Part shown: in pieces, positions 5,898-60,037 of the stretch
How positions within the stretch are numbered: the stretch's first letter is position 1
Layout: each line of letters begins with the position of its first letter
Assembly: GCA_030295235.1 (NCBI GenBank)
Contig: AP026127.1
Location: forward strand, 870,501 to 934,500
Origin: Fistulifera solaris
Taxonomy: Eukaryota > Bacillariophyta > Bacillariophyceae > Naviculales > Stauroneidaceae
Direction of reading: 5' to 3'
DNA length: 64,000 nucleotides
Translations under genes and position numbers: made by a program
The notes under the pieces: model-generated
Told to the model about the DNA's origin: nothing
Databases searched by the model: none
What the model saw: only the letters and a program-made list of their open reading frames with translations

Positions 5898-7389
5898 ATG
5901 ACTGAGACCCCAAGCAGAAAACGACAAAAAGTAGTTTCCGCGTCGGAAGATCAGAGTGTTTTTGCGAAACTTATCGAGTGGATGAGATCCAGAGACAGCG
6001 AAATTTGTGATGCGCTACGCTTTAACGAAACGACAAGAGATCTATACGTTGATTCATTCATCAAAGAAGGCTTTACTCTGATGAGACTTTCCAAACAAGT
6101 TATCATTAGCCGTCATTATTTGATTCCAAATTGTTTTATAGAAATCGCGCAACAAGCAAGTAAGGAAAGTACGGCTTCGCAGCAGCGAGCGGAACACGAA
6201 GAGGACATTGCTCTGGCACTTTATTTAGCCAACAGAGAGGATGCAATAAAACCTTATCTTGATATATTACCGTCATGCATGGACCAGAATCTCCCGGTCA
6301 CATGGACTCCGGAAGAACGAGCGCTGCGTCTTCGTGGATCGCCCGTCTTGAAGGAAATCGAAATTCGCGTGCGAAAAGACTTTGAAGACTACAACAACAT
6401 TGCCGACTTTCTGGCTTGTAACCAACACCTTTTAAAGTGCCCTAGCAAAGAGGTTTTCAGTAATGCCTTGGCGTGGGTCCGGAGCCGTGCTTTCGGTATG
6501 GATGGCGAGCTTCGGACTGACTCTGGTGACGCTGTACCGGCAATGATGCCTCTTCTGGATTTGTGCAACCATGCCCGAGGAAGTACTGTTTCAAAAAATG
6601 TTTCATACAGCTATGAGGGAGGGGTGTGTCGTTGTGAAAGCAGTTAGAGACATTTCCCCAGGTGAAATACTGCGGATTACGTACGGAGCCCTTCCAAATT
6701 CTCTGCTGTTAATGAACTACGGGTTTTGTCTGGAAGAAAACTATGAGCCAGATGGATCGTCGAATGACATATTGGCGTTTGAACCGATTGCTGGAGGAGC
6801 ACTGGTTATCGATTTGCGGACTGGTCCGAAGAGTTACACATACTCGAAGCTGGTGCAGGCTGTAGAATGTTATATTGCTGGTGATGAAGAAGATCATAGC
6901 GAAAACGCGATTGGAGAGGATAGCGAGTCCAATTCATATCACCTTCTTGAAGACGATGAGAAGGATATTGATGGAGCTATGCTTTATTCAGCCTGTGGTG
7001 ACGATGAACGTTGTTCATCTCCCTGCGACAATGACCTCTCTTTGGAATGCGAAGCATTGAAAAATCTCGAAACTAGATTGCTGTCCCTTTTACGTAATTA
7101 CAAGCTTGAGAAAGTTGAACGGGTTACTGCTTTTGATTCTCAGTTGGCCGAAAATACTCAGAATAGATTTTCATCTATATTGACACGATCAGAAATGCGA
7201 ACCATCAGCTTCTTTCTTCAGGCTGCACGGCGTATTATATCAATGCTTGGGTTCAAAGCAGACGATTTGCATTACAATTCTTACGGGTTGAGTAGCAACC
7301 TAGACTGCCCAAACCTCAATAAGCAAATGGAGGAGCTGGTTGATGTTTACATGCGTATCCGGCATCCGGATATAATTTTGCTGCGATAA
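5898..7389 (+). CDS. SET-domain lysine methyltransferase (Rubisco-LSMT/SETD3-like), one frameshift
   Basis: About 496 residues when read across one extra base in the GGGG run at 6621-6624. The first frame carries residues 1-~240: a helical insert (YLDILPSCM, WTPEERALRLRGSP) and the SET signature MMPLLDLCNHARGS. The second continues with VVVKAVRDISPGEILRITYG and LLLMNYGFCLEENY. Dropping one G joins the two exactly at the SET core, with no residues missing. The family methylates lysine (or His, as in SETD3) on non-histone proteins using S-adenosylmethionine. The start at 5898 has A at -3; an upstream ATG at 5862 would add 12 residues. The C-terminal part resembles the Rubisco-LSMT substrate-binding domain, with an acidic insert (~residues 330-385). 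Confidence 0.78.
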
Positions 7390-7913
7390 CGGTGCCCTTC
7401 GAGGTAATACGCATTGATGTGTATCGACGAAGCCAATGTTGATTTCAAAAACACTACGACAATGATAGCCAGCTCATCTATTCGCTATCCCGTGTTACGT
7501 AAGCCTTTTCACTTCGCAGTCAATCGTTGAAATCTGTGTACAGTTGTGGCTGGACGCCAAATTTCTGACTGGTGAACGATGTGCTGACTTGGGGTAAGGT
7601 GGTTGAAAATGGTTTGGCATCGAGGCATGTAGCGTACGCATAGGCTGCAATAACACCAAGAAGGCCCGTGACTTCTACTACGCTAGAGCCAATAGGCTAC
7701 GAAACCGATGTTGGTTCATGTTGTACGCCATTGTTTTGGCAATGACGAGTGAGCTCTTGTCGTATTTGCCGGTGAAATAAATGAGCAACTAATATGGAAG
7801 ACTGGACGAACACTCATTCTCTGCTTTCGTTGGCACAGAAACAAGGTAAAGTAAAGAACCTATTCACAAGTCGCATACACCGTTCTATTAGAACCATTAG
7901 TAGATCCGATCAT
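7390..7913. other. Intergenic between convergent genes
   Basis: Holds the 3' ends of the SET gene and the giant minus-strand gene. A 64-codon ORF on the plus strand (7794-7988) runs into the antisense of the latter and has no coding signature. Confidence 0.5.
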
Positions 7914-10900: not shown

Positions 10901-13300
10901 CGGTAAGTGGATGGGCTGTGTGACTGTCTCTTCTTTCTAATGGCAGACATTCCATGCCTTCCATTACAAGCTCTTGAAGTTGAAGGTATCTATTAGCACC
11001 AGTACTTTTTATGTTTTCTTCCGTTTCGTCAATTACTTCGGTGTTTCGCTTCACATCGTCTTCCTCAACTTCCAATGAATATAGTGAGTAGCGATTTAGC
11101 GATTCAAAAATATGAAACAAGCAAGTATCCATGCCACTCATTCGCATTTCCATGGCCTTTTTTACAAGTACACCCCCAAGGTACAGAAGAGTATCAATTG
11201 ATTGTCTGACCTGAATTCCTACGTTACCCTTGTCATCCCCCTCACTCTCGTCGTCATCGGTCTCGCCATCGCCCAAAAGCAAACACAGGGCCTCCAAGAT
11301 TGGCATAGGCAGTCCAATTAACTTATCACGATCGGCAATGTGGCATAGCTTTTTATTCAAAACCTTGATAACCAGCGGGAACTCGAGTTCTCGGTTGAGA
11401 GTTAAATAGTGAAGGCTCATAATGGCATAATGCCTCAGTAGAACAAAAATGGGTGAATTTTCGTCTTCCGTCAAAAGATGCTGAACCCACCCAATAACAT
11501 CAGCGACATCTCTTATGCAATCATCCTTGGCAAGATCGCAAATACTGGCAGCGACGGCCAGTCGAATCTCAGGATCTTTGTCGTAAATGAACAAGCCCAA
11601 AGAATCAATTACACGCCGATACATTTTCTTGTTTGTCCGGCAAATACTGGGATACAAGCGCAAGACCGCTATTCGTAACTCTATGGAGCCACCATCTTGT
11701 ACCCACTGCGAGCCAAAGAATGACCAAATTTGCTGCGCACAGTGTGGGTCTATGACAAGTGGACCCGCCATGAACTCTAAGAGATGCAGAAGCTGTAGGC
11801 CATCACACGCCTGTGCAGCATTCTGCACTAACTGTAAGTGTACGGGAAGAAAGGTGATTCCCAAATGAGGGTAAGCCTGAATCAGTCGTTCAAGGAAGCG
11901 GTACCACTTGCGTTGCTCGGAGAGAACCGACAAATGCGAAATCGCCACAAGAAGTAGCGCTAGCTGCATCTCCGAAGATAGATTCGTCACACTTGTCAAA
12001 TCCGCGGAAAAAACAAGTTTTCCTAGCACAGATTGATCGCCCTCCAGAAGACGTGCTCTGATACTGGATGAATCGGTGATATCTTCGGTAGACGTGTCGA
12101 CTGGAATCGCTTGTAGAGCACTTAAGTGGCAAGCTGGATCATGCAAATATATGCATGCCATTCCCTCTAAAAGCGACCTGACCATAGGTATGGACGCATT
12201 CAATCGTGGGACCGTCCAGTGCACCAACAAGTCCAGAAGTGATTTTCGTTCCTCTGCCAAATGCGTTTTATGCAGAACAGTGCACCACTGTAATACAGCC
12301 AAGGGATCCAAAGGAACCAACGCATTGCCTGGCGAATTTCTCAAAAGTGCTACCCAATCGACAAGTACATCATAGACAGGCTTCCATGTAAAGGGACACC
12401 AACTTGACCGTTCGTGGCTTTGCTTGACTTTGTCTCTCAGAAGCGGTACAATTTCACATAAAAGTACATCGCTCCATTGAACTAATGCAAGTGTATCTTT
12501 CTCGTCCATGCCGTCGTAATCGTTATCATCGTCGAAAGCAATGGCGGCTTGTGCTAACAGGACCGTTTCGATGAACCAAGATTGCATCAACAACACTTGG
12601 CGATGATTGTCTTTCACCATGAGAATCACCCGCAATACCCGAATCAACCATTCAAGCAATTTGATTTGGTGGTTCAAAGACTCATTGACCCACACAGACC
12701 ACAGTGTTCTCCACAATTGCTGCAATACCATAGACTGCTCCTCAAATGTATGTTCCGACTGCGACAAGAATGTGACCGCGAGCAGTGGCGACAATAGAGC
12801 TGGCATGCGAATAGCGTTTTCCCGTACCAGAGGCATCATTTCACGAACCAGTACGGCCCGCGATGACGGCAGTTCGAGACGTCGGTAGGTTTCCAAAAGC
12901 ACCAGCGCCGTCTCTTGTATGGCCGGAAGATGATGAACGATGTTTTTCGCATAAGCGCGTGCACACGCCGCAAAACAGGCCGATTCTTCCAACACTGTCA
13001 TTCCCGTTGTCAGCAATGAAAGGCACTCTTTTGTATTCATGTTCTCGAAAAGGCATAGGCAATGGAAGGATGCAAGTCCGGTCGCGAGAGTGTCTCCAAA
13101 ATGGTAGCTTCCGGTAGATTATCGTTCGAGCTAGTGAATTCACAGCATGCTTGTGCCAAGGAGCGTCCGAGAGAAGCCGCTACCGCGTGCGGCATTCGTT
13201 GTTGTTGCGGTTGTGTGAATTGTCGTTGACATTGCTGCAGCAAAGATTGTATGCGTTGCTCTTTCTTCTTGGCGTCACTGGTTTGAGACGAAACAGGCAT
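7914..13300 (-). CDS. Giant HEAT/armadillo-like protein, focadhesin-like
   Basis: A continuous 1,708-codon frame (13040-7914) plus an ~88-codon N-terminal frame from the ATG at 13300 (MPVSSQTSDAKKKEQRI, Gln-rich). The two are joined by one missing base at the AAAA run 13048-13051 (TTTT on the coding strand). The protein is almost entirely helical Leu/Ala-rich repeats, with an acidic insert near DGETDDDESEGDD. The block IELRIAVLRLYPSICR, preceded by QIWSFFGSQW, resembles the DUF3730 part of focadhesin (KIAA1797), and size and overall make-up fit. Human focadhesin is about 1,800 residues and is linked to focal adhesions and SKI-complex stability; a role in an alga is unknown. Assignment by eye only; any large HEAT scaffold remains possible. 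A longer start at 13414 lies inside a dispersed repeat and is rejected. Confidence 0.6.
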
Positions 13301-13442
13301 AGTGCGATTATTCGACTGTTGTTTCTGTCGAATCTTGTACAATGACACGAGTGATTCATGTCGAAGAAAGAAAGAAAGAATGGCAATGATCGATGCAGAA
13401 GAGACGCAAAACATTTTTGACGTGTGCGGTGTGATCGAACTA

Positions 13443-13530
13443 ACACAATATCCGGGTGCCCCCTCTGTCGATAAATTTCCCTACGAGAGCTACGTATAAT
13501 TACGTAGAGATTCGACGCATTGTATCATGC
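13443..13530 (+). repeat. CTACGT-hairpin dispersed repeat, copy 1
   Basis: Contains ATATCCGGGTGCCCCCTCTG, GATAAATTTCCCTACGAG and the hairpin GCTACGTATAATTACGTAG. The similarity extends left into GAGACGCAAAAC at 13401 and right into a TATTGCT..GATACGAATAA tract. Confidence 0.8.
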
Positions 13531-17817: not shown

Positions 17818-19894
17818 TTACTGCTGCTCCCAAACAACATGGGAAATGCAGCATGCGCCGTCTTTCCGATTGACATTAGCCCTGACGTTTAAGTCCACCA
17901 CTAGTCCAACAGGGTTATCCTTCTGAGCAGAAGGATTCGCTACTAGTCTATCTTTATCATCGGAAGAAAGAGAACTGCCATCGGTTTTTTGGACTTGCGA
18001 CAGTCGAGTGATTTGTGCACCAGGTGGAATACCGACATGCACACAGGTTTGGCGTTTGAGATATTCAGCGGCACCTTGGACCATCACCGGCGCAGTCACT
18101 TTCACTCCGCCAACTGTGTACTCAACGTCCTTGTCTAAACGACAAGCATGCTCGCTGCGCTTTTCGTTGGCTTCGCACAAAATAAGTTCGCTAAACCAGT
18201 GCTGAGCGTCGGTATCATCAGCGGTATGTCCATGGTCATCGTGAAGCAACGATGAAGCTTCTGATATCGGCAACCAAAAGCGCAGTGTCCCTGACTCGGG
18301 AATTCCATAAAGTGCTGTTTTCAAATCCACATAGCCTAAGCCGCCACATTGTTCGACTTTAATTTTCGTTTCGCGTTCGACACTGGATAAATCCATGACC
18401 CAACCCGCTTGATAGGCTTCATCGCTTCGTTGCTGCATGATATTGTCCGCTGTAATGCCAGGAGACAGACCGGATACAACAATGGAAGGTAATACTTTAT
18501 CGTGATCGGTTGCTGGCAAAAGTTGGTCCGACATGAGAGTTCTTTCATGACGTAGTGGTTCGAGTCGGTTTCCGATGGGTGACCAAATAGTAAGTGATTC
18601 ACGGCATCGCTGTTGTTAAGTAGTTTTGACATGGGTTTGGGAAAGGAAGTTGTAGCGACAGCACTGGTCATCGACTTCGTACTTTGGTAATTCGTCCTCC
18701 AGTTGACATCGGTGGCCATTATGCGTTGTGCTTCTTCCACAGCTTGAGCGAAATACATGGCCATCATCCACCCCAGCCACTCATGTTCCATCTTTTTGGG
18801 ATGCCAGTTGCCGCGACCGGGGCATTTGCTCGGTGCCCCGAATTCTTGCCAGTTTCGAAATCCGGGTGGTTTCTGTGAGTCGTCCTTCGTAGCATCGAGT
18901 AAGGTTGCATCTTGTACCGCATGTTTGGCCATTCCGACGCACATGGCGTCGGAAATCAGCCCTGCTCGGCATATGCTTGAACTAACGAGCACCGTTTGGG
19001 ATCCGTGTCTAACAATATCACCATAGGTTTTTGTTGTTTCAGTTGATGCTGACTTTGTCGTAAATAGCTTTCAAGGACAGCTGCACCACGACCTTCATTC
19101 ATACTAAAATCCCAGCTGATGACATGTGGGTCACTGCCTAGAAAATGCTCGAAACAAAATCCGTACGGGAAGGACGGAATCCCTCCAATGGCGGAGTTTC
19201 GTACCGTCACCTTGGTCTGAAAGAGCTTCTGCAAGATAGGTTCAAGTAAATTTCCCAAAATAAACGGATACGACTGATGATAATAATTGCCCCGTCCGAC
19301 TGTGACGGAATATCCCGCAAAGGACAAGACAAACGGCGTTTGTTGGGCGGCCGCGGTCAATATTCTTCGCGCAGTGGCTTGTACAGACCCGTAGGCTTGT
19401 ACACCTCGTCGAAACATATCTTCTGAATCCTCGCGGCCTCCGTAGCGACGATAAAATTCGTTGCGTAAAGCTTGTACGGTCTCCCATGACGACGCCGTCG
19501 GGTGTTCTTGTTGTGTGCTTTGTGACACTATTTCTTGATGCAATTCTTCCAGTTGAGTCATTGCGGAGGTTTTACCTCCAGGACGTATTATTACTGCTTC
19601 ATCGTGGTCTATTAGAGTCCAGAAGAGACCGACACAGCCCAGCAAGCCGAGGGTTATAATGACGGAATGAAAAATTGGTCTCCGTTTTGTAGCTGTCAAT
19701 GACCTCCGTGTACCGCCAGACAAGGGGGCGCGAATCGTCTTCTTCCGCATCATTTTTTCTCGCTTTAGAAGCTCTTTGTCTTGCACTTCATGAACACACA
19801 ACAACGGTAACAGACACTCAAATAAAACAAATGCGACGAGGAAAAATGAAATGACTGTTTGTCGTCTCGCATCTCGCATCTTAACAGGTATCAT
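17818..19894 (-). CDS. Golgi-type membrane protein with SGNH-hydrolase-like domain, two frameshifts
   Basis: Three overlapping minus-strand frames make one ~690-residue protein. Frame 1 (19894-18956): hydrophobic N-terminus, a second TM (SVIITLGLLGCVGLFWTLI) and SGNH-like blocks FVLSFAGYSVTVGRGN and VRNSAIGGIPSFPYGF. Frame 2 continues AEQG with LISDAMCVGMAKHAV and WHPKKMEHEWLGWMMAMYFA. Frame 3 carries LPSIVVSGL, VEQCGGLGYVDLKTALYG, LILCEANEKRSEHAC and the tail GACCISHVVWEQQ. The joins need one added base in the CCC run 18960-18962 and one in the AAAA run 18518-18521 (plus-strand letters). This arrangement recurs in a diatom-expanded family whose substrate is unknown. The start may instead be a later Met just before the second TM. 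Confidence 0.65.
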
Positions 19895-21519: not shown

Positions 21520-22426
21520 TTAATCATTCCAGCACTTTCCCGTGGGATAGATGACATTGAGACTGGATTGAGCGGCCATGAAGCCAAGAGATGTGGAAGT
21601 ACCGGCAATCGCACACCCAACGAGATCGGGTGTTCCGTCTTGAATGCCGACGACATCCAACAAGAAATTCTGTTCCGGTAGGTAAGCTGCGTCCGTTCCG
21701 ACAAAGAAACCTGTAGCTCCTCCAATGGCGACCGACAGACTGGCATCATTCTTGCTGTTCGCATACGTGGGCTCTTCAATGCCCTCCAACGCCCCCGAAA
21801 GGAGCGTTCGGGCGACACGCAATCCACCGTAGAATGCTACACCACAGCCAATCCAGGTCCCCAAGAAGACTTGTTGAAAAGGCAAGTTGGCTCCTTGCAA
21901 CGCATTGACAATGGGTTGCCATGCCGTCCCCGGAACAAAAGGCCGCCGAACCGAGCAAGATTCCCGTATGCAGTTCGTTGGTGAGATTCAAGCCCGAATC
22001 TTTCGTCAGAGCTTTTTTGGCCGAATAGTACGTCATATGACCCAAGCAGACACCGACGGCATCGCCCAGACCCGTCGATAGGGCGAAATTCAACGAATCT
22101 CCCGCAAATCCTTGTTGCGCCGCAACGATGCTCGCCGTTTGCCAGCCAAAGCCGGCGGGAAAGATTTTACTGACGGTTACTTCGGCCGTGACAATGAAGC
22201 GATCGACGAGGGAACTTCGAGTGACCGTTACGGGAGCAGCGGAAGAATCAATGACTTGCGATGCTTTCGGAACACTGCTGTGGACTTGGCGGCGGGAGAG
22301 TTTGTTCGCCTTACTATCGGCTTCCTCCTTTTTCGAAGGACGAATCGCACACGACGAAACGGGACGAATCGCCAGGAAGCGAGGAGGCACTGTCAAAGTG
22401 CGACGTGTAATCGATGAGACGAGCAT
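21520..22426 (-). CDS. Mitochondrial multi-pass membrane protein, family unknown, one frameshift
   Basis: About 300 residues from the ATG at 22426. The N-terminus (MLVSSITRRTLTVPPRFLA) is Arg/Ser-rich and lacks acids, as in mitochondrial presequences. The mature part has four or more Gly/Ala-rich membrane segments: GWQTASIVAAQQGFAGDSLN, TGLGDAVGVCLGHMTYYSA, FLGTWIGCGVAFYGGLRVA and LSVAIGGATGFFVGTDAAY. The frame breaks at the CCCC run 21928-21931; removing one base gives LGSAAFCSGTAWQPIVNAL and continues directly into NLPFQQVFLG. The gene is divergent from the next one, sharing a ~500-bp promoter region. I do not recognise a named family. Confidence 0.65.
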
Positions 22427-30246: not shown

Positions 30247-31868
30247 ATGAACGGTCCTCTACTCGAACTCATTTCCAAGGAAAACATGACGCCGCGACAA
30301 AAGGCGCTCCTCCCGGCTATCTACAGAGGCAGACTGCCAATGTACAGGTTGTTGCGGGAGCCGACACATCTGGATGAATTCGATTGGGAGAACAATCAAA
30401 ACGCGATGCTGTGGTTCGAAAACGGATCGCTTCTTTGTTGGTACCGGGCCGCTTCGTTCTTCGAAGAGCACGATTACTGTTTTATGATCTCTGATGCGGA
30501 CGAATCATCGCATAAGTTCTTTCTCGAGTGCGCTGTTCATGGCGAATCGGAAGCCAAGATTCTAGAAACCGTCACGTTCCTGTGGTCACTCCAACAACTG
30601 GAAGGAAGTCGGACACGGTTGACCGTTTCGCAGTCATCGGTGGACGACGCGGATTACGAGTTTAATTTTGCTACACTTCAACCCGAACAACTCGCCCGTA
30701 TCCTTGACGCGAATCCGTCGCGCCGATTCTTTTTAGTCAGGGACTTTGGAGCCCGGAGCAAGCCGTCGTTCTCACATCGCGCCCGAACACTACAGATCTG
30801 TGCATTATTGACGGCTGCTTTGAAAATGTCGCATTTGCATTCGAAGACGATGGAACGGCCTTTGTACGCGAGTTGGAAAAGCGGAAGTCATCTTTCGGTA
30901 CTCTCTGCATCGACGTGGACGAAGGCAAGATTCCCTTTAGCCGGACGAACTTTCGACGTCTGTTTGAACTCGATGTAATTGACAAGCTCGAAATCGGTAT
31001 TCTTGTCAAGGAATTAGTACTACTTCCCTTCTCCGCAAAGGCCAAAGCTGTATCTTACAAGATTCGCTCCGACTCTATGCAGCCAACAGAGTTCGAAGCA
31101 CTTGAAATTGTACCCAAAGATCTTCACATCAAATTCTACGTGGATGCCGCGGATAAGGAATGGGATGCGCTTCCGATTGCATTCCTGAATCGAGTGACTG
31201 CACTTGGCGACTTCGAGAAACTGTCCTTTCTAATCTTTCGACGGGGTCAGGGTCGGCAGCGGTTCCATGCCAAGAAAGTGGAACAAGTCGCGAAAGCGTT
31301 GCTTCGTGCCATCAATGCCAATCCGAACTTGCAGTATCTGAATGTGGGTTCCACCCTCTATGAAGACCCGAAGAGCTGCCTTCATTGGGACGTGCAGCCT
31401 CTTTTCAATGCCGTTGCAGCACACCCGGGCATCAAAACGCTGGTCGTGGGAGACTATCCGTCGGGCAATGATCCAGCAAACTATTCCTTGCTCGAAGCAT
31501 TGCTCTCGCGCAACCGGAACCTTGTTGTTCTGGATCGTAAATGCAATAGGATCTCGAATGGAACAAGCGTCGACAAGCTGTACGCACTGAACGCCTTTTA
31601 CAATGGATCGGCTGCATTTGGGAAAGAGGCGGCAACCCTGCGTCAATCGCTGGTAGGGACGACAATGGTTGAAAGCGCATCGCGCAACTTCCAGTACACT
31701 TCTTTGTTGCTGTCAAAGAATACAGATGTCCTCTATGATTTGATGCAATGTTTGAATTTAGAGGATCTCGTTGCTTTGTCGGAGCAGACTGAGGTGCTTG
31801 CTGCTATTTCTCGCGAACCGACCGAACGCAAAACCAAAAAGACGCGGACAGGAAAGGAGAGTGCATAA
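30247..31868 (+). CDS. Repeat-type (LRR-like) diatom family protein, paralogue 1, one frameshift
   Basis: About 540 residues across two frames, joined by one missing base in the TTTTT run at 30730-30734. The first frame has YRLLREPTHLDEFDW and LARILDANPSRRF; the second has SPEQAVVLTSRP, then LCIDVDEGKIPFSRTNF, LQYLNVGST, IKTLVVGDY, LVVLDRKCN and the end block YALNAFYNGSAA..LVGTTMVESASRNFQ. Regular L-x-x-L-x-L strands suggest a leucine-rich-repeat-like solenoid. The gene at 34031-35476 has the same block order. Homologues appear to be a multi-copy diatom family of unknown role. The C-terminus is Lys/Arg rich (TKKTRTGKESA). The ATG at 30247 has a good context (GACAATGA). Confidence 0.7.
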
Positions 31869-34030: not shown

Positions 34031-35476
34031 ATGACAAAGGATAGCGACTTTGACTCTTTATTTGAAGAGGTGTCATTGTCCTGCTTCAATCTCGGACAAG
34101 ATGTTGCACTTGATGATGCGTCGTCACCGACCTACAAATTATTGCGTGAACCAAGCAGTCTCGACAGATTCTCAAGCATAAGCGTCAAATGGTTATTTGG
34201 AGGGATAACGGTACGCGTACGTATGTATCAACGCGAGCGCTCAATAATTTTCGTCCTGACAGTGAGCAACGATACGTGTCACTGACACTGGATGACGAAG
34301 GCTTCGATTTGACCATTGTCGGAAGCACGGACGATGTCATATCACAAACGGCTGCATTCTTCATCAGCTTGATGCGACCACCGACAAACATTTCCGGCCT
34401 TTCAATCAGCAATGAGTTCTATGACCACCACCCTTTCAATTTTGGTGCTGCTGGTTGTCGGTGCTTGGTGGATTTGTTCGAGACACTCCCATCTCTTCAA
34501 GTGACGTTTCAAAATCTTACACTAAGCGCAGCGCAATCTAATGTTTTGGCAACCAGATTGCGTCCCATAGACATGACCATTTGGGACAGCAACTTTGCAG
34601 ATGGAGGGAATGCATTTGTCAGCGCGCTCCAGGGCCGCGGATCGCCATTCGGTTCGCTAACCTTTCAGTGTGACGGACGGGACTTCATAGACATAGATGA
34701 TGACATCTTCAAGCGTTTGCTAGAAGTCGACACGATACAGCATTTACATCTGCCCTACCAGTATGTCGACCGAAATCATGAACTCATTCTTGCTCCTTTT
34801 TCGGCAAAGGTGGAATCTCTCAATTACTACATTTGGTCTGATGACATCACCGCAGCCGATTTGGAATCCTTGGTGATTCATACTTCAAAGCTTTCTCTGC
34901 CTATATGTTGCAATTTTTCCGACTGATTTTATCCTCACGTTTTGGCGACGGATCGCATCCTTGGGCCATTTTGTGGAGCTGGAAATTGAAATGTTGAATA
35001 AAATTGATATACCTGATTGTGTTGTGTTAGAAATCATCAATGCTGCACTTGCAAACAAAAAGTTGAGGTTTCTTAGTTTGTGGGATTCTGACGTGGATTG
35101 GGCTCCACATTTGAGATCGCTTCTTCACGGTCTGAAAGATCACCAAGAACTTCGTACCCTCCGAATAAGTGTGGATGACGAAAGAGCTTTCGGTCACCAA
35201 TTTACCTACTTGATTGACTTTCTATCGCATCATAGGAACATCACAGTGGTCGACCTACGTGGGGATCCTTATTCAGACGGTCTTCTTGTGGAGAAGATCT
35301 ATTCTTTGAACCGCTTTTACAGGGGCTCGGCAAGTCTTGCTGTGAAGCCACCATTGGAGCGTCCAATGCTAGTGGCAGCAGCTTTGACGGAAAGCGCATC
35401 AAACGATTTTCAGCGCTCTGCTCTCTTGCTCTCAAACCACCTCGACGCCTTGAACTACTCCACATTGCTCGATTAG
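34031..35476 (+). CDS. Repeat-type (LRR-like) diatom family protein, paralogue 2, two frameshifts
   Basis: About 481 residues in three frames. The N-terminal frame has YKLLREPSSLDRF. One missing base at the AAA run 34187-34189 leads to VIWRDNGTRTYVSTR, VDLFETLPSLQ and ISGLSISNEFYDHHPF. One extra base in the TTTTT run 34914-34918 leads to ILTFWRRIASLGHFVELEIE, LRFLSLWDSD and the end block YSLNRFYRGSAS..LVAAALTESASNDFQ. Every block has a counterpart in the gene at 30247-31868, so I treat the breaks as consensus errors, although a recently dying paralogue is possible. Function unknown. It sits directly after array 3 and the GC-rich hairpins. Confidence 0.62.
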
Positions 35477-35663: not shown

Positions 35664-37424
35664 TTAACATTGTGTTTTGAATTGCTCCGTTACTTCGCTT
35701 TGATTCCAGCCAAAAATTGTATCGACAAGTTCCGTCGCTAACGAGTTCACCACCGGTCTTCCTGCCTTATTCAAATAAGTGCTGACAGGATCTCGGCTAA
35801 ACGCTACGATCATGTTATGCCCTCGAGGCCAGCGTAATATTTCCTCTCCGAATAAAGGATGTGTCGACAAGGCGGCGGCAAGGTCACTCGATGAGACCAC
35901 ATTTCCCTTTTGTTTTAGCAAATTGACGGGATCGCTCTGTCTCTCACTGCCCGAAGTAACATTTTCCTTGTCTTCCTGCTCTACAGTTTCCAACGTATCA
36001 GATTCATCTGTACTGGCTGTTCTATTTTTCGGATCAAAACGGTCGGAAGCGATATCTTCGGGACGGAAGGCAAGGAAATGCTTGGAATCATATTCCGCAC
36101 ATCGATGAACACCTTTTTCCACCCAAGAGAATCCAAAGATCGCGACATTTCAACGAGGTCGTCATTTTCGTCGTCGCTCACCGAGTGATTGAAGTCTTTA
36201 TCGACCAAGTGCTGAGCAGGTGTATGTAAAGTTGCAATGACAAGCCCGTTGTCATCGACTACCAGTTTGTCGGCATCATCACCTTCTTCTACGAAATGAT
36301 GCGGGTAAGAGGATGATTCCGATAGAAAAGCCGCCGTTCTTACTGGCACTGGAAAATCGGTGGCGTAGGCATTTGCGTAGGCAATTCGTTTGCGAAACGC
36401 TCGGAGTGGTCGCAAGAATTCGTCGGTTGTGGCCATGCGCTTCAACAAGTCGTTCACCCGAAATAGATCTCTGCCTGTCTCACCCAACGCATGAGCAACA
36501 CCGATTTCTGCCGTGCGAGGAATGGGTAGAAATGTATGACCGGCAATACCTAGATGAGGCGTTGCGGTGGTGCAGAACACGTTAAAATGCAAAGCATATT
36601 TGCCGTCGAGAATGAGTACGGAGGACGTGTTATTCTTTGGGTTACACCATGCGCTTAACTTGGCGATGGCATAACGAGAATATATTCCTCCAAGACTGTT
36701 GCCTATTATTGATATTGTAACGTTCTGTAGATTGTCGGGTGAAGCGAAAGGACGCCTCTTGCTCATTTCTTCGCGTATTGTTGTAATCATCTCTTCGACG
36801 AGTCGCTCTCCACCGTTCGCAACGCCGTCATCTGTTTTCCGCTCATTGCAGACTACCGCATGAACCACGAGTTCGTGTACGGCACTCTCGACTTCCGCGG
36901 CCCGTTCCCCTGCCGTCAAATTACTCATGCGTTTGATCCTTTCTCGTTTTCGTTTCCTTTTGACTTCTTTGGCCACGCGTTCCATTTTATGCTGCAAATA
37001 ACTCAAATCACGCGAATACCCCCCGATGCCCGTGTACGAGAAAGCAAAAATGTGTGACCGTCGGTCTCTGTTCGGGAGAAGAAAACTCACTACTTTCGGA
37101 AAAATCACTATCCTCTTCGTCATCTTCGCCCGTAGAAGCATATACATCATCCTCGTCGTTCTCGTCTTCTTCGTCTACCAACGAAAATGGCGGAGCCAGA
37201 TCTTTCCACCAATCCTCACTACTCAATGTAGAGCTTCGTAATATGGAGACACGTTGTTGTGATTTCGTCAGAACGAATTGGGAAAACCAAGTCATGCCCG
37301 TGACGCTGTGACTGGTCCCCATATACAAACCCAACAGCAATAGAAACACCATGATGGCGATATTGTTGGAACACACGGCGTTGATAGAGTCGGTTTGGTA
37401 CCAACTCAAAAGAAACGTGTCCAT
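35664..37424 (-). CDS. DUF676-type putative serine esterase/lipase, two frameshifts
   Basis: About 585 residues. Frame 1 (from the ATG at 37424): N-terminal TM (NIAIMVFLLLLGLYMG), acidic linker, then THFCFLVHGHRG, the oxyanion/first-strand block of the alpha/beta hydrolase. One extra base in the CCCCCC run 37019-37024 separates it from YSRDLSYLQHKM. Frame 2 carries ISIIGNSLGGIYSRYAIA (nucleophile elbow GNSLGG), FCTTATPHLGI and LGWKKVFIDVR. Frame 3 has the C-terminal WPRGHNMIVAFSRDP and LNKAGRPVVNSLATELVD, reached by one missing base, best placed at the TTTTT run 36025-36029. The family includes lipid-droplet and membrane lipases such as yeast Rog1; the substrate is unknown. The exact second join is uncertain because the region is low in conservation. 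Confidence 0.7.
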
Positions 37425-38001: not shown

Positions 38002-39461
38002 ATGGGATCCGGATTGTCGAAACACGAAGACGAAATCAAAACGCCTGCGACAAAGAAAGGAACGGTGGAAGATGCCGATCGTACTACCACGAATCCATCC
38101 GACAACGAGGAAAGCAAATGCCCTATGAAATTAAGTGACGGTTCTTACCGTTATGATTGGGGAGCCCTGTTTCGCAAAGATTTTCCTCATGGTCCGAATG
38201 GGAGTCGTCCGATTGCACCGTCCGATCCAGCCACACAAACGTCGACGCCAGAAAATACGACATCGGGCTGTCCGGTTAAACATCAAGAATACAATGTATA
38301 CTCTCAACCTCTTGATCCTACCAACAACATGCCCAAAGTTGCAAATCAATTACCTGCTCCGAATCAGACGAGACCGATCTCTACCGAGCGTGTGGCTAGT
38401 TCCATTCTCAAGGTACGTGAAAAGACTTTTGAACTATTGTGATAGATTGTAAGACGACATTTACTCACCGATTCTTTTTATCAGGGAGGAGCCAAAGAAG
38501 GGACGACATGGACGTACCCGTCTCCACAAATGTTCTACAATGCTCTAGCACGAAAGGGAAAATTAAGTGAAGAGAACGAAGAGGAGGAAATGATGGAAGT
38601 TGTGGTGGCTTTGCACAATGATATGAACGAAAAGTCGTGGAAAAAGGTATTGCAATGGGAAGCTGTAGTTGCCGACAAAGACGAGGATGCGGTTGCCAAA
38701 GAAACCAAGCTACTTAAATTTCAGGGACGACCGTCCGATTTGAGTCCTAAAGCATGGTTCAAACATTATCTGCTGGGACATCCTTTACCGTTTGATCGAC
38801 ACGATTGGGTTGTATTGCGTCCCGATGGTAGTACCGCGAGATATATTTTGGACTATTACTACAACGAACTAGATGAGTCAGTAAGCAACGCCTCCAGCTC
38901 CAGCCCATCGTCTTCGCAGACATTGTTGGTCGATGTTCGTCCCGCTTTGGATGGCATTGCTCCGCTATGGCACCGCTGTGCCTTTATGCCATGGGCTCGT
39001 CATATTTCACAATCTACTTCATTTACTCCGTTACCCATGTTGCCGACAAGTGGTCTGAAATCGCAAGTCAGTGAATCTGTACAGGTATGGCAAAGCATTC
39101 AGGCTTCGGTAGCGCAATCAAAGTCGGGTCAGCCCTCTGGGAATGCGATTTCGTCCATTAGCGAACAAGAAGCACGAAGGCTGGTCGAAGAGTTTTCCGC
39201 AGCCACGCAAAATGCCAGAAACAGCGCACTGCGCTGAATCAGTGTACTTCCGAAGAAGAATGCACTCGCGCTACTATGGATTTGACCATTGGAATGGGCC
39301 AGATTCTTTGTCCGCTGCAGCATCAAACATTACTCCAGGTGTTGCAGCAGAACGACGACTTTACCATCGAAGCAGCTTTAGAACGGGTTAGTGAATGCGT
39401 CACTTTGAAGAGCCAGCAGCATGCGGTGGCGAAACAACAGCATCCGAAGCTATTTTCGTAG
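38002..39461 (+). CDS. HCCS: Holocytochrome c synthase (cytochrome c heme lyase) with Cys-rich C-terminal extension, one frameshift
   Basis: Exons 38002-38412 and 38485-39461; the 72-nt intron is GT-AG and preserves the phase. The N-terminus has heme-regulatory Cys-Pro motifs (CPMKLSDG, CPVKH). The catalytic part has GTTWTYPSPQMFYNALARKG, HNDMNEKSWKKVLQWE (with the heme-ligating His), PFDRHDWVVLRPDG and LLVDVRPALD. It attaches heme to cytochrome c in the mitochondrial intermembrane space. As written, the frame stops at 39237. Adding one base to the AAAA run 39209-39212 opens a further ~75 codons, giving a C-x9-C pair and CTRATMDLTIGMGQILCPLQ. I take this as the true C-terminus (~460 residues). 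Animal and yeast enzymes lack such a tail. Confidence 0.85.
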
Positions 39462-43616: not shown

Positions 43617-44514
43617 ATGTTTTCTAGTCGTCCCATGACCATGCTGCACTCGAGCCAAATCGTCAACGATGAAAACGCGACAGCGCTCAACAAGGCAACG
43701 TCTGCTGCTACTAAAGATTCATCGTTGACAGTACACAAGACTCCGGCAGGAGCGAAATCGCGACGCGCTTTTGGTGATATTTCCAACAAACGTCCCCAAA
43801 AACATCTTGAAAAGAAGGAGATGACGTCGTGTGGAAATCAGCAGCAGCAGTTCCACGAACACCCGCAGCTGCAGTGACGAAGAAATCCAGCAAAAAGTCT
43901 ACCAAAAAGACGTCAGTGCGCTTATTTTCCAATCCAGACACGAAACGAGGGGTGACATTTGCGGAAGATAAAGTGGAGAGTATCAAAGTCCCTTCTACCC
44001 TGCCCGCTGCCGTCTCCGGAGAGAATGAAACACTAGAGAAGCGTGCTTATGAAGACGACGACACTTACGATGAGCCGGAGAAGCCTTTGGGTCGCACCTA
44101 TCAGCAGCAGTGGGAGAATGGCGACCATGATGACGACGAAACCGTGTTGTCACTGGAAGGCGTCTACGACATTGCCAAGAGGTGGAAGGAATTCGACGAG
44201 AAAATCAATTCACTACAGCCATCGTACGAAGACGAGTTTCAAAAACATATAGCCGACTTCGATCGAGAACTAGAAGAGTTCGCAAAACAAGAAGGTACGT
44301 TGAATTTCTTTCGTTATAACGTGCAATTGCCCGGATATCAATGTATCTGAATCAAAAACTCAACCACTTTCCTGACAGCATCTTGCTTCGATGTTCTTCC
44401 ATCCCCTGATGAGTCCGCCCTTTGTCGTTTCTCAATGAGTTGGAAGATGACTTAGACATATTCGGTGCTGCCGACACCTCGGCTCCGACAAATTTAGAGA
44501 TCTCATTTGACTGA
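43617..44514 (+). CDS. Possible cell-cycle protein (securin/sororin-like motifs), two frameshifts, one intron
   Basis: About 270 residues. Start at the ATG 43617 (ACCATGT). The N-terminal frame carries LTVHKTPAGAKSRRAFGDIS; the K-TP and RRAFGDISN blocks resemble those of securins and other APC/C substrates. One missing base at the AAAA run 43810-43813 leads to KSAAAVPRTPAAAVTKKSSK, RGVTFAEDKVESI and a helical acidic part (WKEFDEKINSLQPSYEDEF). A GT-AG intron from about 44294 to 44378 joins AKQE to ASCFDVLPSPDE. A further missing base near 44418-44423 leads to the tail FLNELEDDLDIFGAADTSAP. The overall plan (basic, motif-rich N-terminus and acidic C-terminus) fits securin, but there is no strong homology. 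Treat as a hypothesis. Confidence 0.5.
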
Positions 44515-46939: not shown

Positions 46940-48021
46940 ATGACGTCTTCTTCCAAGAACGCCATACTCTACGGACAAGTCGTGGTGGGTCCTCCTGGTG
47001 CAGGAAAAACGACCTATTGCAATGGTATGCAACAATATTTACGTCTGCTGCAACGCAATGCGTGGGTGATGAATATGGATCCGGCGAATGATCCGGGTGA
47101 TTTGTACGAAACGATATTTGATGTACGACACGACATGGTAGATTTATCGGTTGTGATGGACGAAATGGAACTAGGACCGAACGGTGGGTTGATGTATTGC
47201 ATGGAATATATGGAGCAACATGTCACAGATATTGTGAATTATGTACGGAAACGACAGCAGCAAGAGCAAGAGAGCGAATCGAAAACGAAGGATAATCCTC
47301 TTTACTTGCTTTTGGATTTTCCGGGACAAGTTGAATTGTATACGCATTCGACATGTGTCCAGAAATTGTTATCGCAGTTGCAAAAACAGTTGAATTTACG
47401 ATTAACGTTGGTGCAACTCATCGATTCGCAATTTTGTTATCAGGCGTCGTCCTTCCTATCGGCGGCATTACTCGGGACAACGGCAATGTTGCGGATGGAG
47501 TTGCCTACAGTGAGCGTATGGACGAAATGGATTTGTTGCGAGGCAATGATTTGCCTATGCCGTGGGAATTCTTCACAGAGTGTTTTGATTTGGAACGATT
47601 GATTCCATTTCTCGATCACACGAACATGAACAAGAATGGACACGAAGAAGATTATGATAACATTGAAGACGACGAGAGACATAACGCCGTTTGGGAAGAT
47701 CCCGACTATCAAGCAGCACGGCGACGTCGGAAGGAATCCAAACTCAATCGCAAATATACCAAATTGCACGAAGTCATGGCAGAAGTTGTTGAGGATTTCG
47801 GATTACTGAACTTTACACCTTTGGATATACAGGATGCTACACTTGTGGGGCGGGTCCTGGCCAAAGTTGATCAGTGCAATGGCTACGTATATACACAACA
47901 ATCGATCCCAGAAGATATGTTCCAGTGCGCGGCGGCGTCATCGAACTATACAGGGGAAGCACAACTGCAAATACGGGAACGCATTCATTCGTCGCCGCCA
48001 TCTTCAAATCAGCAGCCCTAA
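46940..48021 (+). CDS. GPN2: GPN-loop GTPase 2, one frameshift
   Basis: About 360 residues from the ATG at 46940 (MTSSSKNAILYGQVVVG). P-loop GPPGAGKTTYC, conserved NMDPANDPGDLYETIFDVR, GPN loop LGPNGGLMYCMEYM and DFPGQVELYTH. After LVQLIDSQFC and MELPTVSVWTK, one missing base in the AAA run 47525-47527 leads to MDLLRGNDLPMPWEFFTECF, giving the conserved TK-MDL guanine-recognition block, and then FGLLNFTPLDIQDATLVGRV and KVDQCNGYVY. GPN2 works with GPN1/GPN3 in cytoplasmic assembly and nuclear import of RNA polymerase II. A Gln/Glu-rich insert (QQQEQESESK) precedes the DFPGQ block. Convergent with DMAP1; the stops are 88 bp apart. Confidence 0.9.
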
Positions 48022-48109: not shown

Positions 48110-49841
48110 TTATTCCTTCTTGGGAGAGTTCTCCTTTTGAGTCGTGACAGCAGGTGCCGCTGCTGCTGGTGGCGCCTTTGGGGCAACACTTGTTGACACA
48201 GACGAGGTCTCCTTTGTAGTACCTGGTTTTGCTTTCTTTTTGGGTTTAGTGTTTATGGTGGAAGCAACATCACCTGATGATGGAGCCGCGTTAGGAAGAG
48301 CAGGCGGTGCATCTTCTGACTTTCGTTTGCGTTTCGCAGCAGGTTTCTTTGTCTTGGCGTCGATACTCGATGTTGCCGTCGATGCTGTTGGTGCGCCCGT
48401 AGACGCTGCTGTCGTACTGGAGGAGGATGCTGTCGCAGCCGGCTTTTGGCCGCCGGCTTGGATCCGGTAGCAGTTTTGCTGACTGGTGCTTTCGCTTTGC
48501 CCGGTGCTGCCGCGGCCGCAGTAGCAGCTGGAGCCGCCGGTGCTTTCGTCACTGGCTTGGGTCGTGGTGCCGGAGGAGGGGCAATACCCAACAGAGTCTC
48601 TTCGTCCACCACGCGAATATTACCGCCCATTTTGGCCAGTTTGAGTCGCCGAGCACGCAGCACACCTTCTCTTTGGATCACTTGTTTCTCCAATAACAGC
48701 CACGTCAGTGCGTCTCGACGGACCGTATCCATCAAATCACACGCCCGTTTCGTTGCAATCACAGTAGATGGCACATTCATTTCCGCCAAGAGAGCCTCCA
48801 TACGAGCCACCAGCGCTTTGGAAATGCCTGTTTCACCACCAGTAGCGGGTAATACCAGTCGAGCTGATTGCAAATAAGGAACACCGGGCACTGGTGTCGG
48901 AGCCGTGGTCGCCATAGCTTGATCCACCTGTTGCACGGCCACTTCGGGAGCCGGAATAGGCGTTGCTGCCCGTGAAGCTGCCGTCCCATTCGCTGCCACG
49001 ACATGCGCGCCACGCTTCTTTAGTTTGCGCAATTGTGTCTCTACCTGCTTAAGTTCATTCCGTAACGCCAATTCTTCCGCTTCTTCTTCCTTGGTTCGAT
49101 TCCACAATGCCTCCCAATGCGCGCGTCGTTCTTTTCGTACGCCAAATCAAAGACTTTATTACTCGTTCCGGTCCCTAAATGCTGCATGAGCGGCTGGTGT
49201 TGCGGATCCGAAGACGCCAAAGAACGAGCCGCCGCTGTTTCCAGCAATAATTTCGGATCTTCGGCATTACTATCGGCTGCAACGGCTTCCAAGGCTTTCG
49301 TTTCCAGCGCCGCTTCGTGCGACACGCGGCGCTGTAACAATTTTGCCGCAACGGTATAAAAGCGATGTTGCAAGTCTTCGACGGGCCGCGGAGGACACAC
49401 GGCACACCAACGATCATGAATGACGGGCCATCGCAATTCAAATATGCGAGCGTATTCCATCAAAGTGTCAGTTTCACTTTGCGACCAGTCTTCTGATGTC
49501 AACCACGCTTTGTATTCCTCTATTGTGTATTGTACTGGATCTAAATGAATATCAAAACGAGCGTATGGATAATCCGGGTATTCGACATTCGCCCGGACCC
49601 AGTGGTTCAAAAGAAGCCCGTCCGGGCGACTCGACGATGAAAACGGCGCCCAGGTCCATTTTCGCGCCGGCTTGTGTGGATTGATTTGTCTATTACCTAT
49701 TCTAACAAATGTTGGGACTGTTGTTGGGAGTTCGGTGGCAGATCCGGTGAGATCCGAGTGAGGCTTGGGTAGAAGAGGTTTGTTGTTGCCGATTGGTTGC
49801 GGGGCACTTTTCACGCCCAATATTTCCGCTATGTCGGTCAT
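48110..49841 (-). CDS. DMAP1: DMAP1/SWC4/EAF2 chromatin-complex subunit, two frameshifts
   Basis: About 577 residues. The N-terminal frame (49841) has MTDIAEILGVKSAP, RKWTWAPFSSSSRPDGLLL, HWVRANVEYPDYPYARF and the SANT-like YTIEEYKAWLTSEDWSQSET, typical of SWC4/DMAP1. One missing base at the TTTT run 49132-49135 (plus-strand letters) leads to HWEALWNRTKEEEAEELALR, LNVPSTVIATKRACDLM-like helices and VVDEETLLGIAPPPAPRPKP. A second missing base at 48444-48447 changes an Arg/Gln tail with an early stop into a Lys/Ala/Pro tail ending QKENSPKKE at 48110. That low-complexity basic tail is more plausible, but this second correction is less certain. The protein links the NuA4 acetyltransferase and SWR1 H2A.Z exchange complexes. 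Confidence 0.85.
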
Positions 49842-50714: not shown

Positions 50715-51191
50715 TTATATGCCATATTTCAATTTCATAGTCAACAATCCTTGTTGTCCCAGCAATATTTCATTCACAAACGTAAAGAATCCCAACCACA
50801 CAATCGGCGTAATGTCCACTCCAAAGGCCGGAGGTACCACCCCTTTATAGCCCGCAACAAGGGCTCGGTCGGTACTGCCACGATAATCCAGGGAAACTCA
50901 CTCACTTTGGTGTTCGGATACCACGACAAGACCACCCGAGCCAACATGGCAAACGATAAAAAAATTCAAAAAGGGTCCGAGAAAATCGGCGGTAGGCTGT
51001 ACCCAGGCTTCGGTAGCTGCCGTCAAGAGCGACGACGAGGAAGAAAACAAGAGATCGGTCGTGGCGGAATCGGGGAGTGCCTGTCGGGTCGTCGTTGTGG
51101 CGAAGGAGCACGGGGGCAACGTGAAGGCCGTGGCACACGAAAGCCATGTAAGCAGGCAGAAACCGATCTTCTTGATTGAAGGTGAGTTCAT
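50715..51191 (-). CDS. Plastid YGGT/Ycf19-like membrane protein, two frameshifts
   Basis: About 159 residues. The presequence MNSPSIKKIGFCLLTWLSCA ends in TAF, the plastid signal. One extra base in the A7 run 50958-50964 and one missing base in the CCCC run 50840-50843 (plus-strand letters) interrupt the gene. Corrected, the mature part reads ADFLGPFLNFLSFAMLARVV, LSWYPNTKVSEFPW, PTEPLLRAIKGVVPPAFGVD and TPIVWLGFFTFVNEILLG. These are the two-helix blocks of the YGGT family (Ycf19, CCB3 and bacterial YggT). Members act in thylakoid or cytochrome b6f biogenesis and in membrane organisation. The corrected frame shows no further stops down to 50715. Confidence 0.8.
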
Positions 51192-51676: not shown

Positions 51677-53738
51677 ATGAACTCGTTTCTCTATTGCAGC
51701 CGATTTAAACTGCTTTGGCTGATGATGGCTATTGCAATCACGCGGAGCTATGGTCAACAAACGGCGGACTCGAATGTCTCTGCATCAACACAACAATCAT
51801 CGAAACCCCTCAAGTTCGGTATGATCAGTGGAGGATCCTCTTTCTTTATACCCATTGGAGAGGGATGGTTGGCTGCTTGCGAGAAATTGGGGGTCGAATG
51901 CTACTATGAGGCTCACAACGCTACATTGTGGCCGGAACAGGAAGGCGAATGTGATTTCCGTAGCTATCTAGCCGACCAATGGATTGCCGAAAAGTTTGAC
52001 GGTATCGCCTTTAAAGGATGCGGAAATTGGACAATCATGACCGATGTCGTGAACAAAATCATTGATAACGGGATTCCCGTTGTTACATTTGATCATGACG
52101 TCGAAAACACTACCCGCACGGCTTACATCGGCACCGATCAAGTATTTATGGGACAAACGCAAGCGCGCTTGTTGCGTCAACTGCGTCCCGATGGAGGCAA
52201 GTACGTTGTTATCTGCCGCAAAGATGGTCGTTACGAAGGATTCATACAAGAGATATCTCGGTACAATAACAACAAAGACAAGGCAAGCTGGTACCAAGCG
52301 TTCGAATTTGACCGGGACGATCAGAACTATACGCTCGAGTACGAGATAGGCCTCGAATATGGAGCGGATGTCTTCATCTTTCAGTGCCAAACCCCCATGA
52401 AAGACGAAAATTGGACTTACTTTGCTGCCGACATGCGTGCCAGAAATGTCACTTTAATCGGAGTAGATGGAAGTGATTGGCAAATTGATTACTTGAACAA
52501 GCGAAGCGTTGACGGTTTGATCGGTCAACTTCCGTTTGAAATTGGATCGAAATCTATTCAAGTACTCTATGATACTGTTATGCAACGAAAAGCGCAACAA
52601 GAAATCCTGTCTACAAATCTTGTTTCCTACAATCTCATTCCAGCGGACTTGCCCCCGTTGAATGTCGACAACAATTTGATTGGAAATCTCGTCTACATTG
52701 GTTACACATGCTTTGCTTTGATTGCCTTCTCGGTCTTTGTGTGCGTAGCATGGACAATCCAACACCGCAAAGATCTCGTCGTCCGAGCGGCTCAGCCTTT
52801 TTTTCTCTTCATGGTGGCTGGAGGTGTGCTCATCTTGGCTAGCGCCTTGATCCCTTTGACATTCGACGATAATGGCGAAGCGGACTCATTAACTTCAAGA
52901 CAAGCAGCCACCATTTGTATGAGTGTACCGTGGCTGGTTTTTACCGGTTTCACGGTTGCCTTTTCGGCGCTCTTTTCCAAGACGTGGCGGATCAACCGCC
53001 TATTTTTCTCCAAAGTACGAATGGCACGCATGCAAGTTACGGAAAAGGATGTTCTTGCGCCATTTGTGGTGTTGCTCTCCAGTAACATGATTGTCCTTGT
53101 CTGCTGGACGGCCATTGATCCTCTTACTTATACACGACACGAAAACGAAGGGCTGGACTACTGGAATCGTGTCATCTCTACGTATGGCGTGTGCAAGTCC
53201 GACACTGCCTTGGCCTTCTTGTCTCCACTGGCAGCGATAAATCTTGGAGTCGTGGCGATTGCTTGCTGGCAAGCTTATCAAGCCCGAGCCATCAAGTCAG
53301 AGTTCGCCGAGGCCAAGTATATTGCTCTTGCGGTATTTTCTCTCTTTCAAGCTTTCTTTACTGGTGTTCCTGTTTTGATTGTTGTAAGGAACATGCCGGA
53401 AGCTTATTACATTCTCCCTGACCATGATGGTTTTCATTCTTTGCATGGCTATATTGCTCTTGATCTTTCTGCCTAAAATCTTTATCCAAAGAAAGTACGC
53501 AGGCTTAAGCGAGGAAGAGCAGAGAAAGATGTTGCACGATACCATTCGAAAACACGGTAGTTCTGACTTTGGCTATCAGCCCCAGCGGGGCCATGCGCAG
53601 CAATCGAGCTCCGTCCGAAGCCCCCAACCCTCCGACGAAACCAAAGAGACGATCGCGGGTGAAACAGGGTCGGATCGATATGATGAGAAGGACAAGTTCG
53701 TTCATAACTCTCCCATCAAACGCCGCAACTCGTTGTAA
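51677..53738 (+). CDS. Class C (GABA-B-like) GPCR with periplasmic-binding-protein ectodomain, one frameshift
   Basis: About 686 residues. Signal peptide MNSFLYCSRFKLLWLMMAIA; ligand-binding domain ~40-320 of the PBP1/sugar-binding type (KFGMISGGSSFFIPIGEGW, GIPVVTFDHDVENTTRTAYI, TDQVFMGQTQARLLRQL, LIGVDGSDWQIDYL); then seven helices from ~337 (YIGYTCFALIAFSVFVCVAW, QPFFLFMVAGGVLILASALI, FTGFTVAFSALFSKTWR, VLLSSNMIVLVCWTAIDP, LAFLSPLAAINLGVVAIACW, YIALAVFSLFQAFFTG). The frame breaks just before helix 7; one surplus base near the CCC at 53416-53418 separates it from MMVFILCMAILLLIFLPKIF. The cytosolic tail is polar with KRRNS at the end. It lacks the Cys-rich domain of glutamate receptors, as in GABA-B. 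Diatoms have several such receptors; the ligand is unknown. Confidence 0.85.
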
Positions 53739-58032: not shown

Positions 58033-58106
58033 AGGAGAAAGCCGTAACAGGTACAGGGTCCACAATACAAATTTTTTATAACTATTCGGAGTTTCTTTAA
58101 GCTTTT

Positions 58107-60037
58107 TCATTGCTCAGTTTGAATTACGTTTCGCCAAGCTTGTGGAAACATCTCATCAGGTATTCGAATATCATGACGAAAGGCATTCGTGAGAAAAATA
58201 TCAGAAGTATAAGGCTTGTCTACAAATCGAATCGCTTGTCGTGGCAAATGTTCCTCGAGGTGATTGATAAGGAGGCTGTCGTCATCAGGGTCTGGTTCTT
58301 TCATGACAACAGTATATCTTAGCTGACCTTCAATTCGTTCAACACGCATGATTTCACAAGGAAGCAATTCGTCTCGATGGGAGCGAAGATAGTCATCGAT
58401 TGTGTTGTTTGCCGCAAACACTTCCCAATCGTCATTATCGAGAAACACTTTTTCACATTTAACTTCCACGTTCGCAGGGTATCTGGGGGACTCGATCTGA
58501 TCAAACTCGGTGTAAAGTCGGCTTCGCTTGTCTGCATTCAGTTGTCTAGCCGATGTATAATTGGCAAAATCATCGCGATGATCCTCAACGTGTTGTTGCC
58601 ATTTCACCAAATGTTCTTGCCATGCTTGCTCCCATTCTTCTCCATAGTCAAGATATATCTCTTCTCCTGATTGAATGTCTCGCAACGCCACTAGCTCGAA
58701 AGCCAGCTTGGCTGTCGCATTCGTGTCGAGCTCTTCAATGGAACGCTCCAATAGTTCCGGCATGTGGTTGCCGCGTTGTGGATCCGCCCAACGCAATTTG
58801 ACATTAGCTTTCGTTGCATTGTGGTTGATGTAGTTGACCATGGGACCGTATGGACAAAGTAACAATGTGCTTTCGCCATGTCCATAACAATAGTTCATTA
58901 GTATCTGTTGACCCAAAAGACCCTTCGATCGACTAGGCCTGCGCTGCTTGGATCGTGTTTCTAGTTGGTACATGTTGAGTCGACCGCGATCCGATATGTG
59001 AATAAGGGGCACGTGCGCGACGACAGTGTCCGCGGGAAGAAAGCGAGAGGCAAAGGCCCCGCGACCCGCTTGTGCCAATTCAGATGGACCTGCCTTCAGA
59101 TGGTCACCGCACGTTCCGTGTTCTTCGATCCATTCCAATGATCGGGTACTTTGAAGCCTTCGTAAGCTCTGTAGACTCATCTTTTCAGCGTTTCCAGTTC
59201 ATCCGGGTCGTCGTGGTGGAACGCTCCCAGGATCCTTGAACCGTCGAATTTATTGTTGCGAATGAATACATCCCAGAGCTCCTTTGCCACATCTTCGGGT
59301 AAAACTTGTTGTTTGTCAACCTGGATTAGTTTTCGGAAGCTTCGAAACAGTTGATTCGCTTTTTTAAGATCTTTGAAGAGAGGAACAGTTTTCATCTGAG
59401 GCCGAGTTTCAAACCAATTTTCTCCATAACTAACAAAGAACTCTTGACCAGCCGAAATGTCCCGTTTTGCCACCGAGAGACGATTCCCATACATCGAAAA
59501 GCCACCTAAGCCGGGATCTTTTGAACGATGCAGGGAAGCTGTTTCGTCGTACGGCACTGGCGAGTATTCTTCGACATTGAAAATGCCCAAGAAGGAGTTG
59601 GCGGCCGCTCCAAAGCCCGGAGACGCCACATTGACGTGTCCGTAACCCTCATGATCCATTTGCAATGATTCTGCGTCCCAGGTGTATTCATCCCATAAGA
59701 AATTCCATTTCTCTGGACTGTATTCTCGCGCGTGACTTTCAATGTCAATGATGGGGATGACGACATCACCATACTCTTGCAACAGGTCACCCTTTCGGAA
59801 ATCTCTACCAGCGTACATACCCAAACCAGCGCCGGGGATGGTCGACGGGGCTAACCAGATGCCGCACTCGGAATTTGGGTTTGAAGGAAGAGGCACTGTT
59901 TCTTCCGAGATGCCTGCTTCGATAAGTGCATCTTGAGCCAGGGATCGAGTCGATGCGGCGTATTCAATCGATGATGCGTGAACGATGGCGAAGGCTCCCG
60001 CAACAAGAGTGAGCCACATTTTTAAGCTTGGCATCAT
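58107..60037 (-). CDS. Double SET-domain protein, secretory or plastid route, one frameshift
   Basis: About 643 residues when one base is added to the TTTT run 59182-59185; otherwise it is two ORFs overlapping by ATGA. N-terminus: signal peptide MMPSLKMWLTLVAGAFAIVH. First SET-like unit: IWLAPSTIPGAGLGMYAGRD, WDEYTWDAESLQMDHEGYGH, ASPGFGAAANSFLGIFNVEE and GQEFFVSYGENWF. Second unit: EWIEEHGTCGDHLKAGPSEL, QAGRGAFASRFLP, LLLCPYGPMVNYINHNATKA (the NHN motif) and GEEIYLDYGEEW. The C-terminal ~150 residues have no recognised fold. Diatom homologues carry both units in one chain, which supports the join. A secreted or plastid SET protein is unusual; the substrate is unknown. Confidence 0.8.

Follow-up and report, generated by a model that had tools for sequence, protein, structure and literature searches.

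Why should so many reading frames be interrupted by a single base in one stretch of the Fistulifera solaris genome? The stretch in question (hereafter the window) covers 64,000 nt, from base 870,501 to base 934,500 of contig C7, with a GC content of about 46%. An initial annotation, made from the letters alone, had listed 21 single-base, frame-breaking shifts there, in 18 genes by its count and nearly all assignable to homopolymers, and had proposed an uncorrected long-read consensus as their source. We conclude that the 21 breaks are almost certainly errors of the assembled consensus, with nanopore base calling or polishing as the probable origin, and are not present in the chromosome.

The genome analysed comprises 61 contigs and 51.7 Mb. 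In the available part of PMC12159174, a table gives 62 sequences and 52 Mb for an F. solaris assembly, and Fsolaris_ONT_v03reference, GCA_030295235.1, appears among the references; judging by this agreement in size and by the ONT in the public name, the source assembly is probably a nanopore one. F. solaris is termed allodiploid in the available part of PMC13276009 (2026), and the 23-mers of two guide RNAs given there, gAPT3 and gDDE1, each have two exact matches in the genome: on C38 and C39 for the gAPT3 target, and on C7 and C8 for the gDDE1 target, which lies in dde. A segment of C8, from about 779,585 to 840,200, is colinear with the window (77-90% identity per block). This single homoeologue served as internal control, and the placement of the breaks depends on it.

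Reading frames were inferred for each copy with an HMM, from the mismatches to the homoeologue at third codon positions and from stop codons; very short introns and frame breaks look the same to this model. Each site was also checked by alignment, and ORFs were paired between the copies (whole-ORF correspondence). A frame test on short windows (±75 bases) was dropped, being unclear or contrary at 18960, 34187, 34914, 37019 and 48444; the whole-ORF correspondence that replaced it resolves all of these save 37019, where C8 also has two ORFs. The survey was extended by a further 40 kb of C7, for an aligned length between C7 and C8 of about 85 kb, and 50 fragments of the window were scanned with Pfam. 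The listed sites are as follows.

6621..6624, + strand: extra base, in a gene called SET by the initial annotation; shared with C8; neither fragment has a Pfam match
13048..13051, - strand: break close to the beginning of a long gene, which has a weak match to PDS5 (E = 8.6e-4, below the Pfam cut-off)
18518..18521, - strand: missing base; shared with C8
18960..18962, - strand: missing base; single C8 ORF across
21928..21931, - strand: extra base; C8 frame unbroken here
30730..30734, + strand: missing base; single C8 ORF across
34165..34189, + strand: missing base, set at 34187 by the initial annotation and at about 34165, outside the run, by the homoeologue; single C8 ORF across
34914..34918, + strand: extra base, adjoining a length difference between the copies; single C8 ORF across
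36025..36029, - strand: missing base (T5, against T6 in C8), in a gene for a DUF676 esterase; single C8 ORF across
37019..37024, - strand: extra base, in the DUF676 gene; C8 broken by another event 27 bases away
39209..39212, + strand: missing base, downstream of a cytochrome c heme lyase domain; shared with C8
40519..40522, + strand: missing base, in a gene for an ABC-type ATPase; shared with C8
43810..43813, + strand: missing base; single C8 ORF across
44418..44423, + strand: missing base; single C8 ORF across
47525..47527, + strand: missing base, inside the GPN-loop GTPase (GPN2) domain; single C8 ORF across
48444..48447, - strand: missing base, in the low-complexity tail of a DMAP1-like gene; single C8 ORF across (the short-window test disagreed)
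49132..49135, - strand: missing base, in the DMAP1-like gene; single C8 ORF across
50840..50848, + strand: missing base, in an AA pair according to the homoeologue and not in C4; single C8 ORF across
50958..50964, + strand: extra base, in A7; single C8 ORF across
53416..53418, + strand: extra base, in a receptor gene, after the 7tm_3 domain; single C8 ORF across
59182..59185, - strand: missing base, or an ATGA stop/start overlap, between two SET domains; shared with C8

All 21 sites proved to be frame switches in the written sequence of the window. An HMM switch lies near 18 of them, and the other three (34187, 43810 and 44418) are visible instead by alignment and ORF correspondence. Three more HMM switches were not counted as breaks: 23421 and 42825, which are weak and at segment ends, and 27643, which is intron-like. 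The switch directions, in the alignments and in the HMM, bear out the proposed division into 15 missing and 6 extra bases, the latter at 6621, 21928, 34914, 37019, 50958 and 53416. The placement of the sites in homopolymers stands above chance, save for two that the homoeologue contradicts: 34187, where it puts the break some 22 bases upstream and not in A3, and 50840, where the C4 run had been named.

It had also been claimed that correction restores a known motif exactly at the break in GPN2, HCCS, DMAP1, YGGT and the SET proteins. Pfam supports the presence in the window of a GPN-loop GTPase, a cytochrome c heme lyase, a DMAP1-like SANT domain, a DUF676 esterase and an ABC-type ATPase, and also of two SET domains, a 7tm_3 receptor, a cyclase/phosphodiesterase fusion, LigB, Vps52 and others. 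Pfam also supports the claim for GPN2, in which the domain is split by the break: positions 1-165 of ATP_bind_1 are matched in one frame and positions 173-239 in the next, the second match having an E value of 0.0077, below the Pfam cut-off. This is the only match that bridges a listed site. Those of the heme lyase, DMAP1 and SET genes stop short of the break, and for YGGT no match was found at E ≤ 0.01 among the 50 fragments; for these Pfam lends the claim no support.

The frame of C8 is continuous across 14 of the 21 sites. Thirteen are spanned by whole-ORF correspondence (18960, 30730, 34187, 34914, 36025, 43810, 44418, 47525, 48444, 49132, 50840, 50958 and 53416); the fourteenth, 21928, was recognized by alignment and HMM, ORF matching having paired only its downstream piece. 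Five breaks (6621, 18518, 39209, 40519 and 59182) are identical in both homoeologues, four with a missing base and one with an extra base. At 37019 both copies are broken, by different events that the gaps in the alignment set 27 bases apart, and at 13048 the C8 ORF is open across the site, yet about 15 codons there may be scrambled.

An unbroken sister frame is also what would be seen if the breaks were real frameshifts, in genes of which one homoeologue has been decaying since hybridisation. Allopolyploids are expected to lose one of their two copies, and pseudogenisation of a homoeologue would likewise leave one of two copies looking broken. The numbers of breaks are, however, similar in the two copies: 34 HMM switches in C7 and 39 in C8, counts that include false calls at introns and gene ends, for about 67 kb called coding per copy. 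Neither copy stands out, the breaks peculiar to C8 being about equally numerous. Nor do the genes look decayed. In-frame stops are few within called coding segments (3 in 22,693 codons for C7, 5 in 22,255 for C8), and the third-position share of mismatches is the same beside the breaks, on both sides, as overall (0.69-0.70 versus 0.69); there is some circularity in both measures, as constrained segments are what the HMM selects and a stop costs it a penalty, though a smaller one than a frame switch. Within this limit, the called segments of both copies show no relaxed codon constraint and no accumulation of nonsense substitutions alongside the frameshifts.

The position of the breaks speaks against decay as well. 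The 104 kb of C7 and the partner segment of C8 hold 57 switches that occur in one copy only (private switches). Of these, 38 were placeable as single-base breaks, and the remaining 19 (complex, two-base, unaligned or of poor fit) were left out. The placed breaks comprise 27 deletions and 11 insertions, a deletion excess also seen at the listed sites (15 versus 6 of 21). Written runs of at least three bases hold 35 of the 38 (null expectation, 20.7%) and runs of at least five bases hold 17 (null, 1.6%), so that single-base indels are concentrated in homopolymers, with 34187 and 50840 as exceptions. For the deletions taken separately, 25 of 27 fall in runs of at least three versus 20.7% for the null (P = 1.7e-15), which was obtained from 1500 simulated random deletions put through the identical placement procedure. 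The sequence context matters too: for deletions in A/T runs, read on the T strand, the run is preceded by C in 19 cases out of 23 against a background of 39% (P = 2.7e-5), the 23 including one at C8 112547 that had been dropped from the placed set for poor fit. In tables of T-run length by flanking base, long runs were not strongly depleted after C, so that the context bias rests on the 23 deletions. Finally, some genes have both copies broken, in different places: this is the case at 37019 and for the CCT genes on C25/C26 and C3/C4. Decay of one homoeologue per gene is therefore a very improbable explanation.

The breaks common to both copies call for separate treatment. Comparison of the HMM paths labelled eight C7 switches as shared, i.e. 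within 45 bases of a C8 switch, and by a hand estimate about two of the eight could be that close by chance. Six were kept: the five listed above and a sixth, at position 83472, in the extended C7 stretch. The label of 37019 was withdrawn, the alignment having revealed two separate events, and 4163 was set aside as a gene-end effect. At the six kept sites the copies are without a nearby length difference, and the identical stretches around shared sites (12-64 bases) are not longer than background (median 21).

Such sites could be genuine, with both parent species as their source, and be read through programmed ribosomal frameshifting or, for 59182, through a stop/start overlap. Both homoeologues carry the identical break and both frames are constrained, and two overlapping, codon-constrained frames are what programmed frameshifting also displays; at 59182 the ATGA needed for an overlap is present. 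Against this, the five window sites differ in sequence and direction and no common slippery heptamer was seen at them by eye, and similar shortening of A/T runs occurs at private sites. A comparable shared break, in dde, is moreover contradicted by published sequence. We compared 25 distinct oligonucleotides from the available part of PMC13276009 with the apt and dde loci of the assembly: 24 match one or both homoeologues exactly. The exception is gDDE2, published with a T6 run for both dde homoeologues where the assembly has T5 in both, and both dde frames break at this run. In the available text of PMC13276009, large dde deletions are reported for 14 of 27 clones with gDDE1 and for 16 of 27 with gDDE2: the second guide evidently works. 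This shows that a break written alike in both homoeologues can be an assembly error. That the five shared breaks of the window reflect frameshifting or, at 59182, an overlap is accordingly most unlikely, and we give no more credit to the notion that some among 6621, 18518, 39209, 40519, 59182 and 83472 are real, derive from both parents and are read by frameshifting or re-initiation.

In the C8 copy of dde, another T-run, a little upstream of the shared one, also differs in length from C7: T4 in C8, T5 in C7 (L028, about 1560-1570).

That the listed sites are short introns taken for frame breaks is extremely improbable: the window does have two intron-like interruptions, in the LigB gene (29199-29270) and near 27643, but neither was on the initial list, and at the listed sites both frames meet within a few dozen bases.

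The consensus-error reading is thus supported by the continuous C8 frames at 14 of 21 sites, by the homopolymer signature and by gDDE2. Counting against it are the five shared breaks, the ordinary length of the identical stretches around shared sites, the two breaks placed off the run (34187 and 50840), the fact that A5 and G6 runs in other oligonucleotides of PMC13276009, as far as its available part goes, are written correctly in the assembly, and the location of the gDDE2 run, which is on the same contig pair C7/C8 but about 242 kb beyond the window. Identity of five breaks out of 21 in C8 requires a systematic rather than a random error, and part of the errors appear indeed to be systematic and common to both homoeologues, a point that goes beyond the initial annotation.

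The most likely sequence of events is that nanopore base calling mis-measures the length of short homopolymers, usually by one base too few, and that the consensus is then left incompletely corrected, the fault lying presumably with base calling or with polishing. The same cause probably acts at every site, both copies being misread alike where the break is shared, and in the living cell the genes would be read in one frame. For long-read drafts, deletions that follow runs of four to five bases, mostly A/T, are on record in the available part of PMC12007338. Likewise, the nanopore drafts described there (Kastor, PMC12007338), as far as that part goes, resemble the window in having single-base indels, mostly deletions, in short and mostly A/T runs, with genes split as a result. 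They differ from the present case, which concerns a eukaryotic allodiploid with a sister chromosome as control and with breaks common to both copies.

Genes in pieces are also found elsewhere in the genome. A Cpn60_TCP1 search revealed chaperonin genes in adjoining pieces, in different frames, on C1, C3, C4, C15, C25 and C26, and one open frame each on C2, C4 (another gene) and C16. Judging by the numbers of the contigs and the positions on them, the latter are the apparent partners of C1, C3 and C15. Splitting also affects HSP70 genes in places, though the gaps between some pieces could be introns. On C60 and C61 (e.g. C60:153446-155125 and C61:74055-75730), HSP70 and Cpn60 copies lie near one another in several pieces, some with stops; these are perhaps the plastid dnaK and groEL, in which case error would be heavy even at high copy number.

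In the window, 43,115 bp were called coding; 21 breaks amount to about one per 2 kb, so that a 2-kb gene carries one on average. An annotation built on the present reference would contain split genes, spurious introns or supposed pseudogenes, and the loss of genes from a subgenome would be overestimated. Since some breaks are common to both homoeologues, checking one copy against the other misses part of them. The 2025 re-annotation of F. solaris has 26,808 genes, according to the available part of its source; an earlier count gave 9007 pairs plus 2441 single genes (20,455 summed), and split genes may contribute to the gap between the two totals. The biological interest of the breaks is low; their practical relevance for annotators is real.

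Other features of the window were noted in passing. Rfam and tRNA scans of it returned no match. From 58107 to 60037, two SET domains lie in adjacent frames with an ATGA overlap in both homoeologues, and the pair is perhaps one tandem-SET protein. A GT-AG intron of about 72 bases is likely at 29199-29270, in the LigB-type dioxygenase gene, with boundaries also present in C8. The gene at 23985-27880 joins a nucleotide cyclase and a phosphodiesterase; besides its homoeologue, it has a further copy at C8:846510-850409 (85% identity). A diatom receptor gene with periplasmic-binding-protein-like and 7tm_3 domains occupies 51557-53737. Finally, a satellite-like unit with a spacing of about 425 bases is present at 13427-13950 and in tandem on many contigs: apart from the window itself and the flank of the homoeologue, the 111 matches listed for a query of 1001 bases are mostly to the satellite unit, at 72-85% identity.
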